Assembly: GCA_026134085.1 (NCBI GenBank) | Contig: JAOQIN010000020.1 | Location: 1-32,302, forward strand | Direction: 5' to 3' | Source: Candidatus Methanoxibalbensis ujae | Lineage (GTDB): Archaea; Halobacteriota; Syntropharchaeia; Alkanophagales; Methanospirareceae | Length of the DNA stretch: 32,302 nucleotides | Shown here: in pieces, positions 15,187-19,179 of the stretch | Position numbering within the stretch: the first letter of the stretch is position 1 | How the letters are laid out: each line of letters opens with the position of its first letter | Notes under the pieces: model-generated | Database searches by the model: none | The model's input: the letters and a program-made list of their open reading frames with translations, nothing else | What the model was told of the DNA's origin: nothing | Translations under genes and position numbers: made by a program

Positions 15187-15462
15187 ATGCGTAAGAAGTT
15201 GAGTGATATGGTTCCCGGTGAGAGAGGAAGGGTTTTTCGTGTGGATGGAGAGATTCGTCGCAGGCTGATGGACATGGGCATTGTCAGGGGTGCGACTGTT
15301 GAGCTCGTGCGCAGAGCTCCGCTTGGAGATCCGGTTGAGATAAGCGTAAGAGGATACAATCTGTCGCTGCGTGGATCGGAGGCTGAGAAAGTTCATGTGG
15401 AAATATATGACAGCAGCGAAACTGAGATGGACGATACCGAGGCGTTGAGGAGAGATGAGTGA
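15187..15462 (+). CDS. feoA: FeoA-domain protein (ferrous iron transport), first copy
   Basis: MRKKLSDMVPGERGRVFRVDGEIRRRLMDMGIVRGATVELVRRAPLGDPVEISVRGYNLSLRGSEAEKVHVE; SD-like ggaggtg upstream; start could be 15139. Confidence 0.88.
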   Translation: MRKKLSDMVPGERGRVFRVDGEIRRRLMDMGIVRGATVELVRRAPLGDPVEISVRGYNLSLRGSEAEKVHVEIYDSSETEMDDTEALRRDE

Positions 15463-15503: not shown

Positions 15504-15974
15504 ATGCGATCAAGAGGCAGGATATCTGGATTGAGGAGTTTGATAGAGCATTTGAGTGAGGATTTGAAGCATTTGCATTCTGATGTTGAGGATCTGAAAG
15601 AACAGGCAGAACAGAGCGAGACAGCAGCAACCGAGGAGTTCAGGAGGCGCCTCAATGAGGTTGACGAGCATCTTCACGATATTCTGAGGCACAGTGATGA
15701 GCTGAGAAGTGCTGTTCCTCTTGCTTATCTTTCTGATGGTGATGAGGGAGAGATTGTTGAAATCAGAGGTGGTGGGGGCATCACACGCAGGCTCATTGAC
15801 ATGGGATTCACTCCATCCACAAAAATTCGTGTGCTCAAGTCCTCACCGCCCGGACCCATGCTTCTCAGCGTGAGAGGAGCGAGGATCGCGATAGGCAGAG
15901 GTGTCGCGATGAAAATATTTGTGAGCTGTGACTGCGATCATAAATCATCCTGCGATCATAAATCTCAAATGTAA
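15504..15974 (+). CDS. FeoA-domain protein with N-terminal coiled-coil extension, second copy
   Basis: N-term LIEHLSEDLKHLHSDVEDLKEQAEQ...EEFRRRLNEVDEHLHDIL; C-term FeoA: GDEGEIVEIRGGGGITRRLIDMGFTPSTKIRVLKSSPPGPMLLSVRGARIAIGRGVAMKIFV. Confidence 0.88.
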   Translation: MRSRGRISGLRSLIEHLSEDLKHLHSDVEDLKEQAEQSETAATEEFRRRLNEVDEHLHDILRHSDELRSAVPLAYLSDGDEGEIVEIRGGGGITRRLIDMGFTPSTKIRVLKSSPPGPMLLSVRGARIAIGRGVAMKIFVSCDCDHKSSCDHKSQM

Positions 15975-16006: not shown

Positions 16007-16723
16007 GTGAAAATGATAACCGCTGCACTCATCGGAAATCCCAATGTCGGCAAGACGGCTCTCTTCAACAGATTGACGGGTATGAAGCAGCATGTCGGAA
16101 ACTGGCCGGGCGTTACTGTTGAGAAGAAGGTGGGAAAATGTGTGCATAAAGGTGAAGAAATTATAATTGTTGATCTTCCTGGCATTTATAGTTTGACTGC
16201 AAATGCGATAGATGAGTTGATTGCACGAAATTATATTGTTGAGGAGCATCCTGATGTTGTAATAGATATTGTTGATGCGACAAATTTGGAGCGCAATCTG
16301 TATTTGACTCTTCTTCTGATTGAGCTTGAGGTCAAGTTGGTTGTTGCGTTGAACATGTGGGATGTTGTTCGTGAGCGTGGCACTGGGATAGATGTCAAGA
16401 TGCTCAGTGCATTTCTCGGCTGTCCTGTTGTTCCGACTGTTGCGACAACGGGTGAGGGAGTTGAGGCTTTGAAAGATGCGATCTTGAATGTTGCGAAGGA
16501 GAAAGGTGGGCGGAGAAAAGTGTTTTTCTCGTATGGAAGGGACATAGAGGCGTTGATAAAGCGTGTTGAGGAAGTGTTGCGCAGGGACAGGAGCATCGCA
16601 TCAAAATATCCCACGAGATGGTTCGCGATAAAACTCATAGAGCGTGATGAATGGGCATTGAAGAAAATAGAGGGAAGTCCCGTGAGGCAGATGGTGGAGG
16701 AAGCATTGAAGGAGGTGATATGA
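16007..16723 (+). CDS. feoB: Ferrous iron transporter B, N-terminal GTPase part (split FeoB)
   Basis: LIGNPNVGKTALFNRLTGMKQHVGNWPGVTVEKKVG, DLPGIYSLTANAIDELIARNYI, LNMWD; ends at TGA immediately before the in-frame GTG of the next ORF. Confidence 0.93.
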   Translation: MKMITAALIGNPNVGKTALFNRLTGMKQHVGNWPGVTVEKKVGKCVHKGEEIIIVDLPGIYSLTANAIDELIARNYIVEEHPDVVIDIVDATNLERNLYLTLLLIELEVKLVVALNMWDVVRERGTGIDVKMLSAFLGCPVVPTVATTGEGVEALKDAILNVAKEKGGRRKVFFSYGRDIEALIKRVEEVLRRDRSIASKYPTRWFAIKLIERDEWALKKIEGSPVRQMVEEALKEVI

Positions 16724-18046
16724 GTGAGCGCTGCCCTCAGCGACGGGCTCAGTGACGGGGACACTGAAGCTCTTATTGCGGAGAGGCGATATGAGATCAT
16801 ATCAAAGATAGTTTCTGAAGTCGTTAGGGAAAAGAGGAGGGAATGGACAAAAACAGACCTTTTTGATCATGTTTTTCTGCATAAAGTGCTCGGCATACCA
16901 ATATTTCTTGCCTTGTTATGGGCAGTATTCCAGTTCACATTCACATTTTCTGAGCCTTTTATGGTGATGATAGAGATTTTCTTTGGATGGCTCGGCACAG
17001 TTGCAGCGCAAAATATTGAAAATGAGATGATTGCATCGTTTGTTTCTGACGGAGTATGCAATGGTCTTGGATCTGTCCTCGTGTTTGTGCCTCCCATATT
17101 TTCGCTGTTCTTCGCGCTTGCGGTGCTTGAGGACAGCGGATATCTCGCGAGGGCGGCATTTGTGATGGATCGTTTGATGTACAGAATGGGTCTTCACGGA
17201 CGCTCTTTCATACCGTTGATGTGTGGTTTTGGTTGTAACATACCTGGAATAATGGCAACCCGCAGCATAGAGAGCGAGAAAGATCGCATGATAACCATAC
17301 TGGTAAACCCGTTGATGAGCTGTGGAGCGAGGTTGCCTGTTTATGTGCTCATTTCAGGTGTGATATTTGGAGGAGGTTATGCAGCTGGAACTGCTATATT
17401 CTGCATATATGTGCTTGGAATCGCGCTTGCAGTCATCATGGCGCTCATATTCCGCAGGACAATTTTCAGGGGAAAACCATCTGCGTTCGTGCTTGAGCTG
17501 CCGAGATACATTATGCCGACTGTGCGAAGCACGCTGATTCACACGTGGGAGCGCGGGAAGTATTTCCTGATGAAGGCTGGAACGATCATTTTCGGCGTGA
17601 TGATTGTTGTATGGTTTCTGACAGTGATGCCGTGGGATGCGACGAATGGCGGTGAAATCATAGAAAAATCGCTGATCGCTCAGTTCGGGAAGGTCATTGA
17701 GCCTGTTTTCAGACCATTTGGATGGGATTGGATGGCAGCTGTCGCCCTTTTCTTCGGTTTCCTCGCCAAGGAGGTTGTTGTGGGCACTTATGGACTGCTT
17801 CTCGGCGGAGGGGAGGAAGAGGAGGCTGTGAAGGATGCTCTCGCAGGCGTCTTCACGCCGCTTACAGGTTTTGCGTTCATGGCATTCACACTCATCTATG
17901 TGCCATGCGTCGCGGCAGTCGCAACAATTTACAGGGAGACAAACTCATTGAAATGGACAATATTCGCAGTGGCATATCTTGTCGCGCTTGCATTCATCGT
18001 CGCAGCAATCATAATCGGCATCGGACACCTGCTTGGATTTTCATGA
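16724..18046 (+). CDS. feoB: Ferrous iron transporter B, C-terminal membrane part (split FeoB)
   Basis: GTG start with SD GGAGGTGA at 16711-16718; FeoB Gate/membrane motifs VLEDSGYLARAAFVMDRLMYRMGLHGRSFIPLMCGFGCNIPGIMATRSIE, LVNPLMSCGARLPVYVLISG, GFLAKEVVVGTYG. Confidence 0.93.
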   Translation: MSAALSDGLSDGDTEALIAERRYEIISKIVSEVVREKRREWTKTDLFDHVFLHKVLGIPIFLALLWAVFQFTFTFSEPFMVMIEIFFGWLGTVAAQNIENEMIASFVSDGVCNGLGSVLVFVPPIFSLFFALAVLEDSGYLARAAFVMDRLMYRMGLHGRSFIPLMCGFGCNIPGIMATRSIESEKDRMITILVNPLMSCGARLPVYVLISGVIFGGGYAAGTAIFCIYVLGIALAVIMALIFRRTIFRGKPSAFVLELPRYIMPTVRSTLIHTWERGKYFLMKAGTIIFGVMIVVWFLTVMPWDATNGGEIIEKSLIAQFGKVIEPVFRPFGWDWMAAVALFFGFLAKEVVVGTYGLLLGGGEEEEAVKDALAGVFTPLTGFAFMAFTLIYVPCVAAVATIYRETNSLKWTIFAVAYLVALAFIVAAIIIGIGHLLGFS

Positions 18047-18189: not shown

Positions 18190-18606
18190 ATGGAAGGATT
18201 TGAGATGGGAGGAAAAATATATGCGGCAGCTCTCGGTGCTCTTTACGCTGTTTTCGGCGTTATTGAGGTTGTGTTTGTGTTTTCGGGCACCGATGCACTG
18301 ATTCCAGCAGACTTCTTTGGAGGTCTCGTATCACTTGTCATCGCTTCAACATATCTGGCAGGAGTCAGGGACATGCGTGAGAACGATTTTCGCGGCATCG
18401 CAATGCTCATGGGAGGGCTTTTCCTCTCAGTCGTGTTCGGCGTCCTGTATCTGATGCTCATGTGTGCTGATTTTCTTATGTATGTGCTCGGAGAATCTGA
18501 GGAGTTCAGCGTGATCGCATCGCTCAGACCTGAGATATGGCTGTTCGTCGCCGCAATCCCTCTCGCATATCACACATGGCGCATGCTTAAGGATGTTCCC
18601 TGGTGA
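18190..18606 (+). CDS. Uncharacterised four-TM membrane protein at the end of the feo cluster
   Basis: MEGFEMGGKIYAAALGALYAVFGVIEVVFVF...WRMLKDVPW with four hydrophobic segments; ATG 18190 preceded by aaaggaggag. Confidence 0.7.
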   Translation: MEGFEMGGKIYAAALGALYAVFGVIEVVFVFSGTDALIPADFFGGLVSLVIASTYLAGVRDMRENDFRGIAMLMGGLFLSVVFGVLYLMLMCADFLMYVLGESEEFSVIASLRPEIWLFVAAIPLAYHTWRMLKDVPW

Positions 18607-18686: not shown

Positions 18687-19179
18687 TCAAACTATCTCAT
18701 ATTTACGAGAGCCGAGAGCGTTCTCAATGGCTTTATATGCTTGACATTTTCCGGCTGAATGCCGAGAAGAGAACATGCGAAGCAGTCAAGTGCCACGACA
18801 TCATAACTTGCGATGATCATCCCGACACAGAACACTTCGCCACTGAAAGGACCGCCTCTCACACATATCGCATTACAGTCAAATCCGGCGCCCTGTTCAA
18901 CTTGAATATGTGATCATGCAACCCGGTGACATGAAAGCGAACCCTCTCAACATCGGGAATACAGCCTTTCATGTTCTTCATACCGGGACTCACCCTCGCC
19001 ATACGATGCTCTCTGGCACATTTATTGTAATCGCATTCAGGCACATCCCTGAATATGATACCTTTCCTGTGCAGAAATGCGAGAATGCATTCCAGAACAT
19101 CGGGATGCGTTGTCACACCCCCTCCAACTTTAGCAGTTGCGATGTTTGGCCTCACGATTATGTCAGCATTTTTGCTCAA
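18687..19179 (-). pseudogene. Degenerate DUF362 family protein
   Basis: Frame 1: ADIIVRPNIATAKVGGGVTTHPDVLECILAFLHRKG...PGMKNMKGCIPDVERVRFHVTGLHDHIFKLN; then frame change to AGFDCNAICVRGGPFSGEVFCVGMIIASYDVVALDCFACSLLGIQPENVKHI; then another change to KAIENALGSRKYEIV*. Confidence 0.75.

Follow-up and report, generated by a model that had tools for sequence, protein, structure and literature searches.

The window analysed here, a stretch of 32,302 nucleotides taken at its full length, very probably (about 90%) encodes a FeoB ferrous-iron transporter that is genuinely composed of two subunits and belongs to the ANME-1 lineage, ANME-1 being, by inference, the family of the methane-oxidising host. 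Each subunit would have its own gene, the two lying side by side as they already did in an ancestor, and both would be made by translational coupling. This two-gene FeoB is a real, conserved and unusual layout of a well-known transporter, while the in-frame TGA that separates the two genes is not in itself significant.

The split feoB locus and its operon

Two ORFs abut in the same frame of the plus strand, the GTPase gene feoB-G (16007-16723, 238 aa; start codon either GTG 16007 or ATG 16013) and the permease gene feoB-P (16724-18046, 440 aa). The former ends in GAG GTG ATA TGA, its stop codon occupying 16721-16723. The next in-frame codon, GTG 16724-16726, opens the latter, which continues to a TGA at 18044-18046. 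The distance across the stop-start junction (16721-16726) is thus 0 nt. The assembly (2.0 Mb, 86 contigs, 89% complete) contains a single copy of FeoB, the split one. The same-frame TGA and GTG, with a Shine-Dalgarno (SD) motif 5 nt upstream of the GTG, were the starting point of the original prediction, and their coordinates are confirmed.

Both halves of FeoB are intact by domain content. In a domain scan the GTPase ORF matches FeoB_N (7.3e-67), and the G1-G5 motifs of a FeoB-type G domain are present (GNPNVGKT, DLPG, NMWD). The permease ORF matches Gate in two stretches (1.9e-40) and FeoB_C (2.9e-21). Together the two ORFs cover positions 1-187 and 231-594 of the 594-position TIGR00437 feoB model, and feoB-P by itself scores 403.6 bits against it, above the cut-off of 315.65. 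Domain scans and TIGR00437 therefore agree with the earlier claim that the coding sequence on either side of the stop is that of a normal FeoB.

That claim had also placed the break between the G domain and the first membrane segment, which can be refined. The FeoB_Cyto domain is present but divided, since feoB-G matches only positions 1-60 of the 90 in the profile and feoB-P supplies the last helix, ahead of its membrane region. An AlphaFold2 model of the read-through frame (mean pLDDT 80.9) has the break close to where a helix (227-244) ends, just ahead of a low-confidence loop (about 245-252); the next helix, 253-272, is contributed by the permease ORF. What was modelled is one artificial chain, with W in place of the stop, and it does not show that two chains assemble. 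In a Foldseek search it aligns with the NFeoB of Pyrococcus furiosus over about 280 columns, past the end of the 238-residue GTPase ORF. An alignment of fused homologues has a variable-length linker at the cut site. The cut thus lies within the cytosolic helical domain, beside a loop that tolerates variation, rather than between domains, and two chains are needed to build this domain. A sequence search for a solved structure of the permease half found none.

The motif GGAGGTGA lies at 16711-16718, within the last codons of feoB-G, and extends to GGAGGTGAT (16711-16719). All 9 nt of the latter are complementary to ATCACCTCC, at the 3' end of the host's 16S rRNA, which terminates in GGATCACCTCC. 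Only four occurrences of GGAGGTGA exist on the two strands of the 32 kb window. GTG 16724 is the sole start codon ahead of the conserved permease motif AERRY, and the permease starts of relatives align at their junctions, as in MSEVLGEDPEVILAERRY versus (V)SAALSDGLSDGDTEALIAERRY.

Two FeoA genes stand directly upstream in the operon: feoA1 (15187-15462, plus strand; PF04023, 1e-22), the first gene, whose orthologues occupy the same position in relatives, and feoA2 (15504-15974, plus strand; PF04023, 1.8e-19), which is also kept in relatives. An N-terminal extension of about 70 residues is predicted for feoA2 and is matched in part of the relatives. Downstream of feoB-P, gene X (18190-18606, plus strand) encodes an uncharacterised hydrophobic protein of 138 aa. 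The order feoA1-feoA2-feoB-G-feoB-P-X is kept in the family and beyond, some relatives having one feoA fewer among those detected. Gene X comes directly after feoB in almost every split relative, and it likewise follows the fused FeoB of Methanosarcinaceae. Its product gave no match in Pfam or NCBIfam and is a candidate for a new Feo-associated membrane protein. Further downstream, a DUF362 gene (18692-19179, minus strand) is split into two or more pieces that do not share a frame, indicating a pseudogene or an assembly frameshift.

Both halves of FeoB are under strong purifying selection. Compared with the nearest relative (G009), dN is 0.17 and dS 2.1 for the GTPase half (dN/dS about 0.08) and dN is 0.10 and dS 1.7 for the permease half (dN/dS about 0.06), dS being near saturation in both.

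Conservation of the split and diversity of the junction

Orthologues were counted as split or not when their junction was on the contig. By this measure, every FeoB orthologue in the family, order and class that is 57% or more identical is split, and at the same place. The permease frames of those at 57-84% identity measure about 435-491 aa, whereas fused copies exceed 570 aa. Among 246 near-complete genomes of the phylum, the split recurs in a Methanothrix-like family (f22) and in some members of a second family taken as Archaeoglobi-like (f10), both being group codes without names; most other FeoB proteins in these genomes are fused and longer than 560 aa. Named records add splits in Methanothrix, 'Bathyarchaeota', Thorarchaeota, Helarchaeota and Dehalococcoidia.

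Some additional loci are worth recording. A second lineage of split FeoB, only about 28% identical, is found in other ANME-1-family genomes (L027, L029 and L030); its GTPase and permease genes overlap by about 20 nt and its GTPase part is shorter. This lineage and the locus L078 both sit on long branches. Alkanophaga (G037) carries a split FeoB (L012) and a fused one (L116, a 725-aa frame) in one genome. In G063:C238 the split permease is broken again into overlapping frames of 235 and 222 aa (L114, L115), by a frameshift error or by decay.

The conservation concerns the boundary and not its phase: in none of 39 other split loci do the two genes share a frame. Many of their junctions are 4-nt overlaps (ATGA), others are spaced by +1 or +2, and some overlap further; the exceptions are +11 (L012), +17 (L113) and +107 (L002). 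SD-like motifs are often found in the 3' end of the relatives' GTPase gene. In the nearest relative, L002 (84%), 107 nt separate the stop from the first plausible in-frame GTG, an alternative being an ATG about 40 nt past the stop followed by a frameshift. Given this longer spacing, translational coupling may not be universal among split loci. Because the genes lie in different frames in all these other split loci, the in-frame TGA-GTG is an old gene boundary that in this one genome happens to be in phase, and no nonsense mutation.

Proposed synthesis of the two chains

In archaea, pairs of genes that overlap or are separated by next to nothing have been reported to be coupled in translation and to be enriched for subunits of the same complex (PMC6728339, PMC10666635). 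The short spacing typical of termination-reinitiation pairs is found here (0 nt) and in relatives (mostly -4 to +2). Ribosomes finishing feoB-G would stop at TGA 16721-16723, and either the same ribosomes, held by the perfect internal SD, or new 30S subunits would start feoB-P at the abutting GTG. The two chains would thereby be made together, in similar amounts. Once made, they would associate non-covalently, with the opening helix of feoB-P completing the GDI-like cytosolic helical domain and feoB-G providing its other helices. The completed domain would couple GTP hydrolysis to the permease, and the pair is predicted to transport Fe2+. The shared phase of the two genes is incidental. A genuine two-subunit FeoB made by termination-reinitiation was the reading favoured by the original prediction, and it is supported by the split being retained in all close relatives whose junction can be read. 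Uninterrupted relatives without an SD were looked for; the relatives are instead interrupted, with SD-type or stop-start-overlap junctions.

A variant of this scheme is that the two genes are real but that initiation of feoB-P relies on its strong SD and does not depend on termination at feoB-G. The SD is indeed perfectly matched and well spaced, and the role of the SD relative to coupling varies from gene to gene (PMC6728339). However, the spacing here and in most relatives falls within the strong-coupling range of tested archaeal pairs (PMC10666635), which makes independent initiation rather unlikely.

A further reading, which extends a side suggestion of the original prediction, is that the TGA is read through, or recoded, at some rate, so that a full-length fused FeoB is made as well and matters. 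The two ORFs share a frame, and joining them gives a sequence that aligns with fused FeoB over its whole length. However, a single frame conserved across relatives, as in a read-through gene, is absent: only the host genome has one. Since the 39 other split loci all lack it, a fused read-through product cannot be a conserved function. Moreover, TGA is an ordinary stop codon in the host genome, terminating feoA1 as well as feoB-P, the latter at the residue where a relative ends with TAA. No recoding element was seen, and archaeal Pyl decodes TAG, not TGA. Partial read-through thus finds no support and is very improbable.

A recent nonsense mutation in an ordinary FeoB encoded by a single gene, the other possibility raised at the outset, can be dismissed with near certainty, as can a sequencing or assembly error: one substitution would open the frame and the assembly is a MAG, but all close orthologues whose junction can be read have the split in the same position and a start codon of their own, the SD matches at 9 of 9 positions, and both halves are under purifying selection.

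Origin of the split and comparison with known systems

In a 41-row permease tree the clade containing the window's FeoB comprises 14 split rows and one fused copy, L033, which stands beside three ANME-1 split copies (support 100/99). This copy (L033:2308-4293) is the FeoB of MAG AUK033, labelled Thermoplasmata; its position may reflect a wrong label or a gene transfer. Grouping the 14 split rows without L033 was rejected (p-AU 0.025), as was grouping Dehalococcoidia with the archaeal splits (p-AU 0.038), though the tested groups were named after the tree was seen and p values near 0.03 are soft. Rejection was much stronger when all 23 archaeal split rows were grouped without L033. In the GTPase-half tree L033 belongs to the same 15-row clade (100/98), but is basal there with weak support. 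The simplest reading of these trees is that the fused L033 is probably a re-fusion. Because the grouping of Dehalococcoidia with the archaeal splits is rejected, the trees also suggest at least two fissions, Dehalococcoidia having split separately. Thorarchaeota stood apart in a quick tree of 94 rows but joined the other archaeal splits at 86/86 in the careful 41-row tree, and the GTPase tree places an Archaeoglobi-like pair with fused rows.

A broader model, to which we would give even odds, assumes that the two-subunit FeoB is ancient and stable, with a regulatory helical domain built from two chains and a GTPase able to come on and off the permease. It would have arisen at least twice, in archaea and in Dehalococcoidia, and have been reverted by re-fusion at least once.

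No published description of a split FeoB was found in the open literature; subscription reviews lay outside the search and may hold an earlier mention. Neither ferrous nor iron transport is mentioned in the main text of a 2024 screen for fusions and fissions in archaea. In annotation, a genome with a split FeoB may be recorded as partial for FeoB, or as lacking it, by surveys that look for the full-length protein. One survey lists Methanothrix thermoacetophila PT without FeoB (PMC8351635); the Methanothrix loci read here, strain PT not among them, are split. A natural FeoB cut in the helical domain also means that the GTPase and the permease can be made, mixed and titrated separately.

The split FeoB shares with canonical FeoB (TIGR00437; FeoB_N, FeoB_Cyto, Gate and FeoB_C) all its domains, the G1-G5 motifs, the FeoA neighbours and the location of the helical domain between the G domain and the membrane part. 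In contrast to the canonical single polypeptide with GTPase and permease, two polypeptides, cut inside the helical domain, are encoded here and in all near relatives with a readable junction. The best solved relative of the GTPase ORF is P. furiosus NFeoB (PDB 3k53; 8.9e-72, residues 3-236), whose fold can also be aligned with the first part of the permease ORF; in NFeoB, however, the whole cytosolic part is one chain. The FeoA-FeoB fusion of Bacteroides fragilis (PMC8980893) likewise departs from the standard layout of FeoA plus FeoB, but by fusing FeoA to FeoB, whereas FeoB is here divided by fission. The termination-reinitiation pairs of Haloferax volcanii (PMC6728339, PMC10666635) similarly have overlapping or near-zero spacing and code for partners in a single complex. 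The genes tested in those reports were others, and the split feoB has a 0-nt junction with both genes in the same frame.
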